From assembly GCF_947495665.1 (NCBI RefSeq), contig NZ_CANLZV010000007.1, positions 62,001 to 126,000 of the forward strand: 64,000 nt of DNA. The letters run 5' to 3'. This document shows, in pieces, positions 3 to 7,594 of the stretch; the stretch's first letter is position 1; the number at the start of each line of letters is the position of its first letter. The notes beneath the pieces are model-generated. The model saw only the letters and a program-made list of their open reading frames with translations. It had not been told where the DNA came from and searched no databases. This stretch comes from an uncultured Sunxiuqinia sp. (GTDB lineage Bacteria > Bacteroidota > Bacteroidia > Bacteroidales > Prolixibacteraceae). Position numbers and translations under genes: made by a program.

Positions 3-341
3 ATTGCCAAACACGGCTCGCGCAACGAGATTACCATTTACGGCGGAGCCATCCATATTTCCAAGGATTCCATTATCAATACGGATGGGAAGAGCCTGTA
101 CGGACAGATCGTCGTTCGTAAAGACGATGAAAAGATCTTGCTGGATGAGAAAAACTACCTTTGCGAAATGTCGCAGGAAACAGGTATTCTGAAACTAACC
201 TACAAGGATTTTAACCTGATCAATGTAGGCGATCTGGTTGAAATTATTCCGGTACACAGCTGTTTGACCGTTAACCTAATGGGAAATTATTACACAACAG
301 ATGGCGAACTAATTTCGTTAATCCCAAAATCAACCAACTAA
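3..341 (+). CDS. D-threonine aldolase / D-serine dehydratase-like PLP enzyme, C-terminal part (5' truncated by window edge)
   Basis: The reading frame is open from the left edge and ends at the TAA at 339-341, so only about 112 C-terminal residues are present. They match the C-terminal beta domain of the fold-III (alanine-racemase-type) PLP family that includes D-threonine aldolase and DSD1 D-serine dehydratase. Visible hallmarks are an HGSR...IYGGAIHISKD segment at the start and GDLVEIIPVHSC near the end; the His and Cys of the VHSC motif correspond to the divalent-metal ligands of this family. Such enzymes cleave or dehydrate D-hydroxy amino acids in the cytoplasm. The N-terminal PLP lysine lies outside the window, so the exact reaction cannot be assigned. 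The 3' end overlaps the convergent cyclase gene by 4 bases. Confidence 0.75.
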   Translation: MAKHGSRNEITIYGGAIHISKDSIINTDGKSLYGQIVVRKDDEKILLDEKNYLCEMSQETGILKLTYKDFNLINVGDLVEIIPVHSCLTVNLMGNYYTTDGELISLIPKSTN

Positions 342-2131
342 GTCGTTTGCATTCTACCCAAGGCTTCCAGGTAAGCCGTTAGCGGGTACAGTCTTTCATC
401 ATACCACAACGAAGCAAAATAAAGCCCGATGGGCGACGCTTTTAAACCATGTTGCTGATAGCAGTCATCCAACCACTGCAATCCAGCAACACAGGCTGCG
501 TTCGCGCGCCCGCCTGACAGTGCTGAAACTGCCAACGCAGTTTCCTCCATTGAGCCGGGCACCTCTTTGGCTCCTCCCCAACTTCCATCCTGATTTTGAA
601 CACTAACCAGAAACTGCTGACCAGCCAAAATCAACTGTTGCAATTGCTGCCTCGTAGTGACATCAATCCAACTATAAGCCGAGACATCCTTCAAATAAGT
701 CAGCACCCTGGCCGTTCCATAAACCGGATTAGAATGATCATCTGTTTGTTGATTTCCAAACCACAAAGGCAGCCAGCTTCCATCTGCCCGCTGCTTCTTC
801 TGCAAATATGCTAACGCTCGAAAAAAAGCACGCTGATACCGTTTCAGACTGGACCGATCCATCTCGTCCTGGAAAGCTTCCATACAGGCCGACAAAGCCA
901 GCAAGCCATGCCCGGTCAAGTCGGCACAACTCTGATCAAATGGCAAGCGCCCCCAACCTTTAGAGAAAGTGGGCAAGCCGCCATCTTTATTTTGAAGCTG
1001 CAAAAGCCAGTTGCACCCAGCCAGTACCTGCTTTTTCACTTCGCTCTTTGGCTGAAGTTGAAGAAGTGCTAAAATGGCTCCTGGGGTATCATCGCCGTCT
1101 GGTACTGAGCCACTGTGATTCGTCCAGCCCCATCCTCCCGGACCAGTCCCGTTAAACGGATGAATTTCCTGGTTCTGGACTTCTTTCAAATGAGTGACCA
1201 ACTTCTCTTTTACATCCGGTGTTAAGACAGTATCCATCTTTGAGCGGAGTGCTTTCACCGACAAAGAAGTAACCCAGGTGGACAAATTTATATCGATTGG
1301 CCAGCTGCCATCTTCGCGCTGGGTACGCTTCAAAAAACCAATGCCCTTTTCAACCACTTCCAAATCCTTATAGCCCGCTTCAACCAAACTTAAGCAAACA
1401 AAAGCTGTCAAAGGCATGGCCTCTAAAAAGCCACCGCTCTCCGGCATCAAGCTTCGTAACAGCTCCAAAGCAGGCCGGATTGCTCTGCCTCTTACGGCTC
1501 GTGCCAAGGCATTGGTCCTTTTCTTTTTAAAAACTACGATTCCCACGGCAATCAACGCCGGAATAGCGTAACTAACCACACTAAGATTGAGCAATCGGTA
1601 AAAATTGCGGGGTAATAAAGCAAGTTCGAAAGGCAGTTGCGGAATCGGCCGGAAAGCCTCTTTCTCCGGAATGCCGCACAAACCGCACATGGTCAGAATG
1701 GGAACAGAAAACGTATAATCTTTTTGGTAATGACTAAGAATCGTTTCCGCAACTTGAGACGACTGCAAATCAATGCCCTGCTCAGCCAGGTATTTGGATA
1801 GTTTGGCCTGGAGCCCCGCAATCGCCTCATCTTCTCCGGCATATAAATTGGTGGCGGCATAAACCAGTAAACTCGTGCTCACATTGCCCCGACTTTGGGG
1901 CGTATCACCAAAACTTCCATCAGCATTTATATGCTTTTTCAACCAATTCAGGCCTCCTTTTATAGCAGACTGATTGGCTTCCTTATCGTGAACGTGAAGC
2001 GCCGCAACAGCCACCGCCACGCCCAACGCACTGGACGACAACTCGCCGGTCCAGAATCCCTCCGGATTCATCTCATCCAGTAAAATACCGGACAGCTCAT
2101 CAAAACGTTTTTGCCAGTTTTCTTCAGTCAT
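338..2131 (-). CDS. Squalene-hopene cyclase-like class II terpene cyclase
   Basis: This 597-residue protein has the length and repeat pattern of squalene-hopene cyclases (about 630 residues). Several QW-type repeats are visible (ADGSFGD near 70, REDGSWP near 273, ADGSWLPLWFG near 449, QDGSWGG near 514), with a GSMEETALAVSAL segment near 526 as in the family. The catalytic class II motif DxDD is present as DGDD at residues 345-348, within SVPDGDDTPGAILAL, so protonation-initiated cyclisation of an isoprenoid is chemically possible. Family knowledge would suggest squalene as substrate, but no squalene synthase gene lies nearby; a polyprenyl diphosphate or polyprenol is an alternative (inference). 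A hydrophobic stretch near 185-200 could be the membrane-contact region. It is the last gene of a five-gene minus-strand operon, 27 bases after the preceding gene. Confidence 0.8.
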   Translation of the reverse strand: MTEENWQKRFDELSGILLDEMNPEGFWTGELSSSALGVAVAVAALHVHDKEANQSAIKGGLNWLKKHINADGSFGDTPQSRGNVSTSLLVYAATNLYAGEDEAIAGLQAKLSKYLAEQGIDLQSSQVAETILSHYQKDYTFSVPILTMCGLCGIPEKEAFRPIPQLPFELALLPRNFYRLLNLSVVSYAIPALIAVGIVVFKKKRTNALARAVRGRAIRPALELLRSLMPESGGFLEAMPLTAFVCLSLVEAGYKDLEVVEKGIGFLKRTQREDGSWPIDINLSTWVTSLSVKALRSKMDTVLTPDVKEKLVTHLKEVQNQEIHPFNGTGPGGWGWTNHSGSVPDGDDTPGAILALLQLQPKSEVKKQVLAGCNWLLQLQNKDGGLPTFSKGWGRLPFDQSCADLTGHGLLALSACMEAFQDEMDRSSLKRYQRAFFRALAYLQKKQRADGSWLPLWFGNQQTDDHSNPVYGTARVLTYLKDVSAYSWIDVTTRQQLQQLILAGQQFLVSVQNQDGSWGGAKEVPGSMEETALAVSALSGGRANAACVAGLQWLDDCYQQHGLKASPIGLYFASLWYDERLYPLTAYLEALGRMQTT

Positions 2132-2158
2132 AATCAGGTTCAGTTTAGTTCGTTAGTT

Positions 2159-2983
2159 TTATTTTAAACAGCCTAAAGCCAGCAGCCCATAAAAAGTATA
2201 TTCCACATCCCGATTTGCATCACCGTCTCCCGATAAGAAAGCCCCTTTATCGTAACACTGCTGGGCAAAATCAAAGCAAGTCGGGGCAATCAGGCGCGTG
2301 TCAAAACCCGATTTTTGCAAAGCGAATAAGGCCACTCCCATCGACAGCAGATCGCCTGATTGCACCTGCTCAAACGCCCGAAAACCTATTCCGTCTTCAA
2401 AGTACGTGAGTAGTTGCTGTTGCATTTTTGCTGTTGGCAACCCCACTTCATAACGAGCTACTGTCAGCGCAGCAACCAAGCTGCATGGTGCCCCTTCCGG
2501 CATTTTATAAAATCTTAATAACAATGTAAGAACAGCATACATCCAGCGCTTCCTGCCATAGCCGGCATCCAAAACCAAAAGCGACAGAAACAACTGGTAG
2601 GAAAAATTAATGGGATGATCATCACGAAGAAAAGCCCGAATGAGCGCCCAACCACGGATTCGTTTCTTCAACAGGCTTTGCTGAATCAACATCAAAGCCA
2701 AACGATCAACAACACTTTCTTCATTCCTCGTGTTTTGAGCAAACGCCTTCAGACCTGTCAACACATCGTTTTGATTCATCGCTAAAGCCAACCAGTATCC
2801 GAATAATGAATAGTACAAATCCGGCCGGCCACCACGATCCGTAAAAGCTCCATCCACATGTTGCTGCTCAGCAATAAACACTTTAACTTCGTGCTGACTT
2901 TCAGCATCTAACAAATCCAAGCCGATTTGGACCCGCTCAATAAATTGTTGATAGATTGGTTGATGATTGAAGGAAGGTTTCAT
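2159..2983 (-). CDS. Small prenyltransferase/squalene-oxidase-repeat protein
   Basis: The 274-residue product resembles a single alpha-barrel of the prenyltransferase-beta/terpene cyclase superfamily. The clearest segment is VDGAFTDRGGRPDLYYSLFGYWLAL near residues 43-67 (a DGxF...GGxPDLYxS repeat), and further weak repeats such as DRDVEYTFYGLLALGCLK-like sequence close the protein. No DxDD acid motif is visible, so it is probably not an independent class II cyclase. Its place between the polyprenyl synthase (11 bases upstream) and the cyclase (27 bases downstream) suggests it acts as a partner subunit or a lipid-modifying enzyme in the same pathway (inference). A protein prenyltransferase role is not supported, because no zinc-ligand set is obvious. 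Confidence 0.6.
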   Translation of the reverse strand: MKPSFNHQPIYQQFIERVQIGLDLLDAESQHEVKVFIAEQQHVDGAFTDRGGRPDLYYSLFGYWLALAMNQNDVLTGLKAFAQNTRNEESVVDRLALMLIQQSLLKKRIRGWALIRAFLRDDHPINFSYQLFLSLLVLDAGYGRKRWMYAVLTLLLRFYKMPEGAPCSLVAALTVARYEVGLPTAKMQQQLLTYFEDGIGFRAFEQVQSGDLLSMGVALFALQKSGFDTRLIAPTCFDFAQQCYDKGAFLSGDGDANRDVEYTFYGLLALGCLK

Positions 2984-2994
2984 ATTTCAGCCCG

Positions 2995-4563
2995 TCAGAA
3001 AATTTTTCCCATCACTCCATACAGACTCAGTTTTAGTTTCAGGTTTTGAAGTTGATCCAATTCGTGATAACACTTCTCCACATACAACTTCAAAAAAGCT
3101 TCCGCATATTCATCTATTCGCTCATCAACAATCAGCTGACGAATTTGCTGAATTTTCATTTTTCCCAAATCGGCTAAACATTCCGACTTCCCTTTTTCAA
3201 TAAATCGTTCATTCAACAAAGCCAACAGAAACGGAAAATGATGCACTTGGTCCTGATGCTGTTCATCCTGAAATTCATTTAAGTCATCCCGAATTTGATA
3301 GGCAATGCCAAACCAGTCTGAAAAAACCGTCAGCCGGCTGAGTTCACTGGCAGATGCACCACCATGAATGGCTCCAAGCAGCAAAGCTACTTTTACCGCT
3401 TCTCCGGTTTTCTGGGTAAAGATTTTTAAAATTTGATCAACCGTGAGAGCTTCCCGGTTCTGATCCAGCATCAGGTCGGCTCCCTGCCCTGTTGCCAAAT
3501 TAAGGTGAGAAGAAGCCACCACGCGCAACGACTCAGCTAAAACCGCTGGCTCGATTGGCAAATCAGCCAACAATTGATAGCCCTTCCCAATCAGGTAATC
3601 GCCCACATTAATGGCTTGAGGAATGCCATGCGTTTTATGCAACGTTTCCTGATCGTAACGAAAATCATCGTCATCTTCAATATCATCGTGAATCAACGAG
3701 GCCTTATGGAAACATTCAATAATTAGTGCCAAAGCGGCTTGTATTTCTTCAGAAATTTCAGGGGTATAAGACCGGTAAGCCAATACGGTCAGCAAGGGGC
3801 GAATGCGTTGTCCCCCCATTAACAACATGCGTTTTGCCAGCTTTTCAGTCGAATCATGCTTTTGAAAAAATTCCTGAAGGTTGAATTCCGTAAAATAATC
3901 CAACACCTGATCTTTCAGCAAAGAAACCGACAAGGGCTGCTTGCTTGAATTGGGTTTCAAGCTGTGCATTTCTTCAAACAACCAACCATAATCAACATTG
4001 GTATTTTCGCAACCATCATACAACAAGGGCAAGCCCATAACAGGAACTGCAGCTCGCGAAACGGGTTCGAATGAGCGCTGCAACACCGGCATACAACTCA
4101 CGCCAATAACAGCATCAATGGCTCCCTCTTCGACCAGACCAACAGCAACTGTTGTGCCTTCTGCAACCAAGGTGGTATATCCCAAAGCTTCGGCTTTATT
4201 CAGCACCGAATCAATCTGGCATCCTTTACACCCGGCACAAATCAGTCCCAGCGAATCCATTTCGGCCTGACAACTTGAAGTATTTTTCAGGCATTGCGGG
4301 AGCAACAGCAAGCGGCGATTAAAAGGAGTAGCAGCAACCACTTCACGCCAAATTTCATTTCCACAAAGCACAATCGCAAACTCAAGAAACACCTGGTCTG
4401 CACCCAAGCGCTGAATAAGCTCCCCGGCCAGTTCTTCCAGGCGGTCAAAATCAACCGGTGGTAAGATGTTTTTTTCTACAATCAGCCGGGCCGCTTCCTT
4501 TCGAAGGGCACTCCGCATTTTTACATCCGTTGGTACTATGAGTCGTCGTTGCGTCTTGATCAT
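2995..4563 (-). CDS. DUF116-like / polyprenyl diphosphate synthase fusion
   Basis: The 522 residues contain two parts. Residues about 60-200 look like a DUF116 domain: LLLLPQCLK, then Cys at 91, 98, 109, 112, 115 and 157 (the CAGCKGC cluster and a GVSC motif), a set that could hold an Fe-S cluster or another metal. Residues about 215-520 are a class I trans-isoprenyl diphosphate synthase, with GGQRIRPLL, the first Asp-rich motif DDIED (293-297) in LIHDDIEDDDDFR, and a second motif DDLNE (426-430) in which the last Asp is Glu. The synthase part would elongate allylic diphosphates with IPP in the cytoplasm; chain length cannot be told. It starts 5 bases after the radical SAM stop. The fusion ties isoprenoid chain synthesis to a redox/metal domain of unknown role. 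Confidence 0.8.
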   Translation of the reverse strand: MIKTQRRLIVPTDVKMRSALRKEAARLIVEKNILPPVDFDRLEELAGELIQRLGADQVFLEFAIVLCGNEIWREVVAATPFNRRLLLLPQCLKNTSSCQAEMDSLGLICAGCKGCQIDSVLNKAEALGYTTLVAEGTTVAVGLVEEGAIDAVIGVSCMPVLQRSFEPVSRAAVPVMGLPLLYDGCENTNVDYGWLFEEMHSLKPNSSKQPLSVSLLKDQVLDYFTEFNLQEFFQKHDSTEKLAKRMLLMGGQRIRPLLTVLAYRSYTPEISEEIQAALALIIECFHKASLIHDDIEDDDDFRYDQETLHKTHGIPQAINVGDYLIGKGYQLLADLPIEPAVLAESLRVVASSHLNLATGQGADLMLDQNREALTVDQILKIFTQKTGEAVKVALLLGAIHGGASASELSRLTVFSDWFGIAYQIRDDLNEFQDEQHQDQVHHFPFLLALLNERFIEKGKSECLADLGKMKIQQIRQLIVDERIDEYAEAFLKLYVEKCYHELDQLQNLKLKLSLYGVMGKIF

Positions 4564-4568
4564 GCTTT

Positions 4569-5744
4569 TTATCCGTAAGCGCCCAAGCCAAAAAAGGCTC
4601 GTTTTTTAGCAAATTTATACACCCAGTTTTTCTCCGGAACAGGCTTCCCTGAGCCATGACTACATACTCGCTCCATGGCACGCAAGCGTTCCGCTTCATT
4701 GCCTCTTCCTGAAGTATCTTTGGCACCATGTTTTTCCACAAAGTCCACCAGCCACTCAGGGTCTTCCATAATGATACAGCCCGATGTCTGCCGGGGGATT
4801 TCATGCTTCAGCTCCTTCAAAAAGGCCGATGAACGATAAATCTCCGCCAAGGGCTTATCGCCAATCCTGTCGGTGGCAAACTGAATAACCGGACATGGCT
4901 CGATGTATCCGGAGGCATTGATATGATGGCTCAGCCCCGAGGCTGCCGGACATAATCCACGTCCTTCGCCGTCCCAATAAGCATCAATAATAACCAGCTT
5001 GTATTTGGTGCGTGCTTCGACCATATGCTGCCGAAGTTGTTGTATTTCCTCTTGACTCAGGCTCAAATTGGCCGAAGCGTTTTCGCCCACCGGCCTGAAA
5101 ATATAATACCACAGGTAAGTGACTCCCTGATTGATCAATGACTGAATAAAATCAGGCGAAAGCGCCAGGTCTAAATTTGACTTGCAAACACTCATGGCCA
5201 CTCCGGTAACCAGGCCGGCATCTGTTGCATGGTCAATTGCCTGCCGGGTTCGCTGATAAACTGCTTTTCCGCCACGACGCACGTCCGCCACGTCCTCATC
5301 TCCTTCAAAACTGATCAAGGGCGAAACGTTGCCGCATTGCCTCAACTTTTCTGCCACCTCCGGCGACAATAAAGTACCATTGGTAAACAGCTGAAAATAG
5401 CAGTCCGAATGTTTGTTGAAAACGTCAAAAAGTGGTTTGTACATTAAAGGCTCTCCTCCCAAAATTCCAAAGAAATAAGAGCCCTGAGCTTTGGTTTCGG
5501 TTATAATCTGATCGACTTGCTCAGCTGTCAGACGGCTATTTTTCTTTTTCCCAGTCACCCAACATCCCTGGCAATTCAGGTTGCAGTCATCGGTTACTGA
5601 AATAAAGTGAAAGGCTGGAAAGAACGTGCCTTTCTTTAGTCGCTTCTGAAAACGATTAAAGCTCAGTGTTCCTTTTATTCCAAGGTTGTACACAAATTTA
5701 TAGAGACACTTTTTATCCGTCTTAAACAGTAGTTGTTTCAGCAT
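4569..5744 (-). CDS. Radical SAM enzyme of the terpenoid cluster
   Basis: This is a radical SAM protein with the CX3CX2C cluster motif in VTDDCNLNCQGCW (Cys 54, 58, 61 in the 391-residue form), followed by GGEPLMY and a TNG motif typical of the TIM barrel. The C-terminal third carries further Cys residues (GLCPAAS, IEPCPVI, TSGCII), suggesting a SPASM-like auxiliary cluster site. The ATG at 5744-5742 was chosen because it sits 1 base after the ferredoxin stop and just before the conserved region; a longer frame from 5861 would overlap the ferredoxin gene by 116 bases. By analogy with HpnH of hopanoid synthesis it could modify a polycyclic isoprenoid with a 5'-deoxyadenosyl radical, with the upstream ferredoxin as electron donor (inference). 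Substrate is unknown. Confidence 0.8.
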   Translation of the reverse strand: MLKQLLFKTDKKCLYKFVYNLGIKGTLSFNRFQKRLKKGTFFPAFHFISVTDDCNLNCQGCWVTGKKKNSRLTAEQVDQIITETKAQGSYFFGILGGEPLMYKPLFDVFNKHSDCYFQLFTNGTLLSPEVAEKLRQCGNVSPLISFEGDEDVADVRRGGKAVYQRTRQAIDHATDAGLVTGVAMSVCKSNLDLALSPDFIQSLINQGVTYLWYYIFRPVGENASANLSLSQEEIQQLRQHMVEARTKYKLVIIDAYWDGEGRGLCPAASGLSHHINASGYIEPCPVIQFATDRIGDKPLAEIYRSSAFLKELKHEIPRQTSGCIIMEDPEWLVDFVEKHGAKDTSGRGNEAERLRAMERVCSHGSGKPVPEKNWVYKFAKKRAFFGLGAYG

Positions 5745-5745
5745 G

Positions 5746-6516
5746 CTATTTTTCTTTTCCAATCCCTTTTTTAAACTCTTCCAAGGCTTTCCGTCGTTCT
5801 TCCTCAGCCAGCTGAACCACGTCCTGTTTAAATATTGATTTCCGCGTTTGGTTACGCTCATTCAGCAAAACAAACAATCCTTCTTTCGGTGCAGATGACC
5901 GCGGAGATTTTTCTCCCGGCTCGGCTCCGGCCAATGCCGTATTCTCAACCAGTCGCGGAAACATAATGGCCGAGGCTGGACAAGTTCTGCCACAAGCCGG
6001 ACAATTATTTTTACATGCCAACGGATTAATCACCGTCAGGCTTTTTTTGTCATAAGCATAAACTCCAAACAGACAAAAACGAGCACATTGTCCACAAAGC
6101 GTGCAACGCGACTCGTCAATCACCGGAAACCAGGCAGGTACTGACAACTCATTCATTTGAATTTGATAGCGCGCTTTCCCTTCCTTCAACTGGTAATCCG
6201 TTTTCAACTTATCCAGAATTTGATCTACGGTAAATTCCCTGAAGTTGAGCACCTCAAAATTTTCCAGTTTAATCGAAGCCTGCTTAAACATGTTCTTCAC
6301 CGCACGCGGATAGCAGGCCACCACAATTTTGCGCAAGTACTTTTCGGCAATCCGCTCCAGAACATCTTTTTCGTTCACCGAAAACGCACATAAATCATTC
6401 AACTCATAAACATCCACATCCAGCTGATGAAAGCTCTCAGCCAGTTGGTCTGTCATTTCCTTCGAAATTACACCTGCTCCACATCGACAAAAAAGAATAC
6501 ATGTAGTTTGAATCAT
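5746..6516 (-). CDS. Dicluster [4Fe-4S] ferredoxin-like protein
   Basis: The 256-residue protein has two Cys clusters: CTLCGQCARFC (Cys 138, 141, 144, 148) and CKNNCPACGRTC (Cys 168, 172, 175, 179), both compatible with [4Fe-4S] binding. The N-terminal 110 residues (FCRCGAG at 10-15, Cys 43, IVVACYP near 65) recall the N-terminal part of HdrA-like electron-transfer proteins. The C-terminal 60 residues are charged and probably helical. It is the first gene of the minus-strand operon and is followed after 1 base by the radical SAM gene, which it may reduce (inference). No signal peptide is visible, so it should be cytoplasmic. Upstream lies a palindrome overlapping a candidate promoter (6562-6584). 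Confidence 0.75.
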   Translation of the reverse strand: MIQTTCILFCRCGAGVISKEMTDQLAESFHQLDVDVYELNDLCAFSVNEKDVLERIAEKYLRKIVVACYPRAVKNMFKQASIKLENFEVLNFREFTVDQILDKLKTDYQLKEGKARYQIQMNELSVPAWFPVIDESRCTLCGQCARFCLFGVYAYDKKSLTVINPLACKNNCPACGRTCPASAIMFPRLVENTALAGAEPGEKSPRSSAPKEGLFVLLNERNQTRKSIFKQDVVQLAEEERRKALEEFKKGIGKEK

Positions 6517-6561: not shown

Positions 6562-6584
6562 TTGGGAAATCATTCCCAAACTTA
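6562..6584 (-). promoter_or_regulatory. Candidate -7 promoter element with overlapping palindromic operator
   Basis: A perfect inverted repeat TTGGGAA-ATCA-TTCCCAA occupies 6562-6579. On the minus strand the sequence TAAGTTTG (6584-6577) fits the Bacteroidota -7 consensus TAnnTTTG and overlaps the right arm. No TTG at the expected distance is clear. The site lies 61 bases upstream of the ferredoxin start and could be where a repressor controls the terpenoid operon (inference). Confidence 0.4.
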
Positions 6585-6731
6585 TACAACAGCATTAACA
6601 AGTTTTCACAAAAAAAGTGGTGCCCCATATCTTGAAAAGATTTTACTTTTTGAATTTCAAAAGCAATAAAAATACAACAAGTTATAGCTATTTCAGACCA
6701 AGATGACAGGTTATAAAGAAAAAGGAAATAC

Positions 6732-6805: not shown

Positions 6806-7594
6806 ATGAAAAAAATTGGAACTATTATCCGGACAATACTCTACCGTTCGCTCTCGTTTGAAAATTACCTTTACGTATTAAGCAAAGCGTATTTCTTTAC
6901 GTTCAACACCGGTTTGCTAAAGCTGAGCAAATCGTTTGAATACCCCTATTTTCTCAAGCAGATCATCCACCCGGGAGAGCTTGTGATTGACATTGGTGCC
7001 AACCTGGGTTACCTCACCGTTTGGTTTTCGAAATTGGTGGGGAAACAGGGGCAGGTGCACTCCGTAGAGCCTGTGGCGCCAGTAAGGCAAGTACTTCAAA
7101 AAAATACCAAACGCCTTAACAATGTCCGGATATATCCTTTTGCACTAGGCAACGAAAACAAACGAATTCAGCTGGGAAACAACACCCGAATCAAAAAAGG
7201 ATATGTGGGTTCGGGCTCCCATTTTGTCATTGACAAACCCAGCCAGGCCGCTGACGAAACCGACATTGTTTCAGAAGCTGAAATGAGACGCGGCAGTGAG
7301 TTATTCGCTGAATTGAATCGCATCGACTTTATCAAGTGCGACATTGAAGGATTTGAAACGGTGGTCCTGCCCGAGATGGAGCCTCTGATTAATCGTTTTC
7401 AACCAACATTACTGGTTGAAAGTGGTGGCGAAAAACGCCGGGAGATGCTTGATTTTTTCAATGCCCGAAACTATAAAGCCGTTATCCTACTGAACGGAAA
7501 GTTAAGACCGGCTACTGAGCATGAATCGCGTGATATCTTTTTCTTTCATGCCGACAAGCTTGACAAACTGGCCGGCCAATACATTCAGCTGTAA
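6806..7594 (+). CDS. FkbM-family SAM-dependent methyltransferase
   Basis: The 262-residue protein has the Rossmann methyltransferase core. LVIDIGANLGYLT (motif I, about residues 59-71) binds SAM, HSVEPVAPV near 90 is the acidic-loop motif II, and DFIKCDIEGFE near 173 is the FkbM signature. The family methylates hydroxyl groups on sugars, glycolipids or secondary metabolites. It is a single gene on the plus strand, divergent from the terpenoid operon with 289 bases between them. A role in modifying a product of that operon or a surface glycan is possible but not shown. No signal peptide is seen. Confidence 0.85.
   Translation: MKKIGTIIRTILYRSLSFENYLYVLSKAYFFTFNTGLLKLSKSFEYPYFLKQIIHPGELVIDIGANLGYLTVWFSKLVGKQGQVHSVEPVAPVRQVLQKNTKRLNNVRIYPFALGNENKRIQLGNNTRIKKGYVGSGSHFVIDKPSQAADETDIVSEAEMRRGSELFAELNRIDFIKCDIEGFETVVLPEMEPLINRFQPTLLVESGGEKRREMLDFFNARNYKAVILLNGKLRPATEHESRDIFFFHADKLDKLAGQYIQL

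Follow-up and report, generated by a model that had tools for sequence, protein, structure and literature searches.

Squalene-hopene cyclase (SHC; Alicyclobacillus, 1sqc/1gsz) and drimenyl diphosphate synthase (Streptomyces showdoensis, 7xq4 and its kin) are the closest structural counterparts of the cyclase described here, and solved complexes of the latter hold C15 farnesyl diphosphate. SHC-like cyclisation without squalene occurs in the sporulenol-type pathway of Bacillus, in which a heptaprenyl chain is cyclised; that pathway has a tetraprenyl-beta-curcumene synthase and, to our knowledge, no DUF116, ferredoxin or radical SAM protein. We analysed 64,000 nucleotides of DNA (the window) from an uncultured Sunxiuqinia sp. 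(GCF_947495665.1, contig NZ_CANLZV010000007.1, positions 62,001 to 126,000), which carry a five-gene operon whose predicted pathway would likewise make a long prenyl chain and then cyclise it, working like squalene-independent SHC-type pathways, with scores below the cut-offs for hopene cyclase and HpnH. The operon keeps company with a cluster of about 13 electron-transfer genes, an association new here. One of its domain fusions has a precedent: DUF116 joined to a polyprenyl synthetase was noted in Psta_0175 of Pirellula staleyi, where a flavodoxin-like fold was proposed for DUF116 and, in that context, an electron-transfer role was suggested (PMC5898192). The passage on Psta_0175 reports the fusion only and mentions neither a cyclase, the other operon genes nor the partner cluster (PMC5898192).

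A conserved five-gene operon

Five minus-strand genes, with gaps of 1, 5, 11 and 27 bases, make up the operon at the place and with the spacing given by the initial annotation. Its features, in order of transcription, are as follows.

5746..6516, minus strand: fd, iron-sulphur (Fe-S) protein with an HdrA-like N-terminal stretch and a Cys-rich ferredoxin part, presumed electron donor
4569..5744, minus strand: rsam, radical SAM enzyme, 391 residues (Pfam Radical_SAM)
5562..5585, minus strand: CNLNCQGC, the CX3CX2C radical SAM motif in rsam; Cys 54, 58 and 61 invariant in an alignment of 16
2995..4563, minus strand: DUF116-polyprenyl diphosphate synthase fusion, 522 residues (Pfam polyprenyl_synt and DUF116)
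3970..4413, minus strand: DUF116 domain (PF01976) of the fusion, with seven invariant Cys (C91, C98, C109, C112, C115, C157, C185)
3673..3702, minus strand: ASLIHDDIED, first Asp-rich motif of the polyprenyl synthase, with Ala five residues ahead
2159..2983, minus strand: rep, small alpha-toroid (prenyltransferase-repeat) protein, 274 residues (profile search)
338..2131, minus strand: cyc, predicted class II terpene cyclase with the SHC fold, 597 residues (Pfam SQHop_cyclase_C/N)
1088..1099, minus strand: DGDD catalytic acid motif of cyc (D345, D347, D348), Asp invariant in the alignment

Pfam matches (SQHop_cyclase_C/N, polyprenyl_synt with DUF116, Radical_SAM and Fer4) bear out the families first named for these proteins in broad terms, with two amendments: rep has no Pfam match, and fd has the additional HdrA-like stretch. 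The longest frame of rsam would begin at 5861, inside fd; a start at 5744 matches its relatives.

The initial annotation had proposed a search for this gene order across genomes. We scanned named genomes with two peptide patterns, confirmed 300 relatives of the radical SAM protein, and analysed the best 80 of the 300, locating genes by tblastn. The radical SAM gene is present in all 80 loci, the DUF116 fusion in 78, fd in 75, rep in 72 and cyc in 69. All five occur together in 66 loci, 65 of which have identical order and strand; the other (L088; G and L numbers denote genomes and loci) differs solely by an extra upstream polyprenyl-synthase match. Contig ends cut 11 of the 14 incomplete loci; in the other three the sequence continues, yet L107 and L111 show no fd and L139 no cyclase. 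Not all genes located in this way are intact: one is split in two in L087, L132 and L142, and the cyclase is truncated by a contig end in L098 and L150. At 12775-15696 of L132, from the complete genome of Draconibacterium orientale, rep and cyc each form two overlapping frames, indicating frameshifts or sequencing errors. Of 69 loci, 30 have more than 60 bases between rep and cyc. We rejected a sixth pathway gene at this position, since the contents of nine of the larger gaps, which we inspected, differ from one locus to another (an ABC transporter pair, a secreted protein, and short or opposite-strand frames).

We also compared 61 related genomes, the source genome included. The cyclase is found in 22 of them and an rsam orthologue (E below 1e-100) in the same 22; a weaker rsam relative (~1e-42) is found in G345, and G322 has one as a second copy. 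Among 20 regions fetched from cyclase genomes (G317, whose contig starts within the cyclase, was excluded), 18 have the complete set; in L054 a contig start falls within the operon, and the contig of L070 holds only the cyclase. Against four relatives, the ratio of nonsynonymous to synonymous differences (pN/pS) for the five genes is 0.12-0.46, with pS of 0.69-0.84 and synonymous sites near saturation. The order and strand kept in the named loci, the same 22 genomes for cyclase and radical SAM gene, and these pN/pS values speak against a chance arrangement, and the operon is confirmed as real and conserved.

Close named relatives belong to Sunxiuqinia and other Prolixibacteraceae, and the operon is carried by cultured strains of Sunxiuqinia, Draconibacterium, Maribellus, Mariniphaga and Mangrovibacterium, so that the predicted lipid can be sought directly; carriers include Sunxiuqinia elliptica and Draconibacterium sediminis (L076, L097). 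Occurrence of the operon among the 61 genomes is patchy, also inside single genera. Across the order, the cyclase is present in 13 of 295 genomes. In a phylum sample of 395 genomes the cyclase profile matches six, namely the source genome and five with weak partial matches (E 2e-7 to 3e-10), which lie outside the order and which we take to be non-orthologous. The DUF116 fusion is useless for tracing distribution across the phylum, where housekeeping polyprenyl synthases match it in 294 of 296 genomes. In plasmid records we found distant SHC matches and stand-alone radical SAM proteins, and no DUF116. The plasmid relatives of rsam, from Klebsiella pneumoniae and Escherichia albertii (L166, L167) and Methanosphaera (L168), are 31-33% identical over 75-87%; no other operon gene appears among their annotated neighbours shown, and a TetR regulator adjoins the Methanosphaera copy.

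Proteins of the operon and the cyclase substrate

In the predicted structure of cyc a double alpha-toroid fold spans the whole chain. SHC is its best profile match and a top fold match, with ~23% identity by structure alignment, and the two share the full-length class II fold, the DxDD acid and repeat (QW-like) motifs. The DGDD motif was first described as intact, and all three Asp are indeed invariant across 50 sequences. On this model cyc is a class II terpene cyclase with the SHC fold and an intact acid motif. Drimenyl diphosphate synthase is structurally as close to cyc as SHC (19-20% identity), and cyc scores 87.9 bits with the NCBIfam hopene cyclase model TIGR01507, for which the cut-off is 431.

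The fusion protein scores 108.5 bits for DUF116 (gathering threshold 25; Cys invariant in an alignment of 42) and 140.7 bits for the polyprenyl synthase family (threshold 27), and both Asp-rich motifs of the synthase half (D293, D294, D297; D426, D427) are invariant. The small residue five positions before the first motif, which we take to be a chain-length site at which a small residue presumably permits long chains, is Ala, as in 9kp1; the other four PDB sequences shown have Tyr or Phe. The fusion is one of three PF00348 proteins in the source genome, in keeping with the earlier proposal that the operon makes its own prenyl chain with a dedicated synthase.

The radical SAM protein exceeds the Pfam superfamily threshold (70.1 versus 29.5 bits) and has three more invariant Cys in its C-terminal part (C265, C284, C323). 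Its best NCBIfam model is SkfB, at 77.9 bits far below the cut-off of 300. The initial annotation had compared it with HpnH, a likeness we reject (TIGR03470, 36.8 bits versus a cut-off of 225); the accompanying idea of an oxygen-independent radical modification survives insofar as Fe-S and radical enzymes that could modify the product are present. A B12-radical SAM methylase of the HpnP/HpnR type was also rejected, as rsam has no Pfam B12-binding domain at E <= 0.001. The family profile of rep matches the alpha-toroid of Rab geranylgeranyl transferase beta (E 1.6e-9). There is no Cys or His among the invariant columns of its alignment, and rep therefore has no visible zinc site.

As first described, no hopanoid gene lies in the operon or adjoins it; where hopanoid loci have hpn genes, this one encodes a polyprenyl synthase of its own together with DUF116 and a radical SAM protein. 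The source genome encodes a single protein of the squalene/phytoene synthase family (SQS/PSY, PF00494), and its gene lies in a carotenoid cluster (L180, G000:C6 12-31 kb). A CrtI-family desaturase (338.6 versus 238.1 bits) and CrtD (547.7 versus 500) are encoded on one flank and a lycopene-cyclase-domain protein (97.9 versus 39.4) on the other. The protein itself falls below every cut-off (HpnD 113 versus 278.6, CrtB 85.6 versus 550, HpnC 73.8 versus 250), so its naming as a phytoene synthase rests on context. No SQS/PSY protein was found in 5 of the 22 operon genomes (G303, G305, G309, G317 and G347, 91-99% complete). Given these five genomes and the carotenoid setting of the source genome's copy, the cyclase substrate is probably something other than squalene, as the initial annotation had supposed.

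Association with an electron-transfer gene cluster

Where the partner cluster is linked to the operon it lies downstream of cyc on the same strand. It encodes PQQ-type beta-propellers, an NHL-type protein, a ferredoxin with a Tat-like leader, a membrane Fe-S protein of the NapH/NosR kind, a membrane protein with a propeller, a NuoE-NuoF fusion, a NuoG-N/GltD-like protein, a glycosyltransferase and an ABC/FtsX pair (Tat-like leaders and membrane spans were judged by eye). The NapH/NosR-like protein scores 53.6 bits against a NapH NCBIfam cut-off of 234, a similarity only. With the quinol-dehydrogenase Fe-S proteins NapGH and NosR the cluster shares a Fer4_5 membrane Fe-S protein and a ferredoxin with a Tat-like leader, whereas here these are grouped with NuoEF/NuoG-like proteins and PQQ-type propellers. 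In the source genome the cluster is complete and unlinked to the operon (G000:C2 ~506311-526895; L208, L209); it also holds a 360-residue frame without an assigned family.

The NapH/NosR-like gene and one propeller gene of the cluster occur in the same 33 of the 61 related genomes. All 22 operon genomes have the cluster, compared with 11 of the 39 others (Fisher 1e-8, relatedness ignored). Within the family's other genera the figures are 13/13 and 7/17 (p 0.001, same test and proviso), and order-wide, at E <= 1e-40, the NapH/NosR-like gene is present in 11/13 operon genomes versus 36/282 others. Exceptions aside, genomes with the operon thus also have the cluster, but the converse does not hold, and the operon may be accessory to the cluster.

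Physical linkage points in the same direction. Propellers follow cyc on the same strand in 13 genomes (8 of the 80 named loci plus five others), including Draconibacterium, Maribellus and distant lineages. The propeller is the next gene in L089, L102, G354, G315, G466, G532 and G493; in L143 it lies 1.3 kb past cyc with no frame of 90 codons between. One gene intervenes in L144, L148 and L152 (the last also seen as G584, which is not counted separately) and two in L142 and L151, these being a CobW-like GTPase and/or a permease-like protein. A CobW-like GTPase gene stands directly after cyc, on the same strand, in L142, L151, L152, L145 and L141, and a permease-like gene follows cyc in L142, L144, L148 and L151. 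When the neighbour clusters of 68 loci are ranked by frequency, the beta-propellers are the sole downstream same-strand cluster in the listed top 14. Three upstream same-strand clusters recur in 7-8 loci each, one of which (7/68) appears transporter-like by eye. Among the papers listed by full-text literature searches, which left subscription literature mostly outside, none was seen to describe the five-gene set or the partner cluster. The published suggestion of electron transfer for DUF116 agrees with the cluster found here.

A proposed pathway and its alternatives

Our preferred reading, to which we assign a probability of roughly 0.5, is that the operon encodes a dedicated squalene- and oxygen-independent pathway to a cyclised polyprenoid membrane lipid that serves the electron-transfer apparatus. 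The putative enzyme classes follow from family knowledge and conserved motifs. Starting from the computed gene set, motifs, cyclase fold, conservation, co-occurrence and linkage, we infer the substrate, step order, radical-step chemistry, product and role as follows. The synthase half of the fusion would extend an allylic diphosphate beyond C20, giving an all-trans chain, and the Asp of the cyclase DGDD motif would protonate the far end of this chain and close one or more rings. The radical SAM enzyme, supplied by the HdrA-like ferredoxin and acting alongside the Cys-rich DUF116 domain, would alter the other end or the ring system; this radical or low-potential step might remove or replace the diphosphate, or form a C-C or C-X bond. 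The small alpha-toroid protein could hold the chain or pass it on. The product would then serve the separately encoded apparatus (NuoEF/NuoG-like input, NapH/NosR-like membrane Fe-S protein, Tat-type ferredoxin and beta-propellers) as a membrane component or lipid cofactor. This scheme retains the prenyl chain, class II cyclase and non-squalene substrate of the initial annotation, drops HpnH and adds the electron-transfer cluster, which had been missed and which suggests a purpose for the lipid. If correct, it would mean that cyclic isoprenoid lipids can be made without squalene or oxygen in Bacteroidota, providing a possible extra source of cyclic terpenoid biomarkers in sediments, a chemical role for DUF116, and a terpenoid tied to a respiratory-type gene cluster.

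Several points weigh against this reading. A DxDD motif in a class II fold cannot separate hydrocarbon from diphosphate substrates, and SHC and drimenyl diphosphate synthase score alike. The predicted DUF116 structure gave no fold match at E <= 0.001, and the chain-length argument is weakened by 6kd7, which is named only as a polyprenyl synthetase and lacks the Ala. The cyclase and radical SAM genes lie on different contigs in G347. The first propeller is not the next gene in 6 of the 13 linked genomes, and two of the 13 operon genomes order-wide have no NapH/NosR-like match (G493, 82% complete, in which propellers adjoin cyc, and G495, 97% complete). Of the 33 genomes with the cluster, 11 have no operon, and the Fisher tests ignore relatedness. 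Finally, the source genome's SQS/PSY protein scores best with the HpnD model, though below its cut-off, and SQS/PSY is weakly associated with the operon (17/22 operon genomes versus 16/39 others, p 0.008).

The 11 genomes that have the cluster alone, the uncorrected tests and the separation of operon and cluster in the source genome would also suit an electron-transfer link that reflects no more than a common habitat and ancestry among anaerobic Bacteroidota, with a separate function for the operon. We regard this as somewhat unlikely, given the same-strand linkage extending to distant lineages, the absence of any operon genome lacking the cluster among the 22, and the contrast that persists within the family's other genera.

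It is unlikely that the operon makes a cyclised prenyl diphosphate, as drimenyl or copalyl diphosphate synthases do, as the precursor of a terpenoid that is secreted or antibiotic-like and has nothing to do with electron transfer. The structural closeness of drimenyl diphosphate synthase, the prenyl diphosphate synthase within the operon, the patchy distribution and the transporter-like upstream neighbour would fit such a role; the propellers (8 loci) as the only downstream same-strand cluster among those listed, and the full nesting of the operon within the cluster's distribution in the 61 genomes, argue against it.

A more far-reaching reading makes the product a hitherto unknown lipid cofactor or redox lipid: a polyprenoid cyclised at its terminus, with a head built or attached by the radical SAM, DUF116 and ferredoxin proteins, acting as membrane electron carrier or anchor of an NADH-to-periplasm electron-transfer complex formed by the partner-cluster proteins. 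We hold this to be quite doubtful. In its bolder form DUF116 and the radical SAM enzyme would replace squalene synthase, their Fe-S chemistry coupling or reducing prenyl diphosphates. Alternatively, the operon might tailor a respiratory quinone, with the cyclase closing the tip of the menaquinone side chain into a ring and completion left to the Fe-S enzymes. Omega-cyclic menaquinones are known in Nocardia, and the NapH/NosR-like protein resembles a quinol-oxidising type; a chain synthase would be needless with menaquinone as substrate, and the operon has no quinone-ring enzyme, which together leave this option decidedly improbable.

A divergent hopanoid pathway, in which the cyclase turns squalene to hopene and the radical SAM enzyme is HpnH-like, draws on the SHC matches, the SQS/PSY proteins of 17 of the 22 operon genomes and the HpnD-leaning score in the source genome, and is very unlikely and rejected as the principal explanation in view of the missed hopene cyclase and HpnH cut-offs, the five operon genomes lacking SQS/PSY, the position of the sole PF00494 gene between desaturase and lycopene-cyclase-domain genes near CrtD, and the polyprenyl synthase that the operon itself carries.

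Two further features lie upstream of the operon. A divergent FkbM-type methyltransferase gene adjoins it at 6806-7594 of the window and is absent from the listed 14 commonest neighbour clusters. Ahead of fd there is a possible promoter:

6577..6612, minus strand: possible Bacteroidota-type promoter, TTTG, spacer, TATAAGTTTG

The consensus behind this site is one we assume to hold for Bacteroidota, and matches to it are not enriched in the window (5 found versus 6.1 expected). At the other end the operon stops at cyc, its last gene, because the neighbouring gene is convergent and overlaps the cyc stop by 4 bases.

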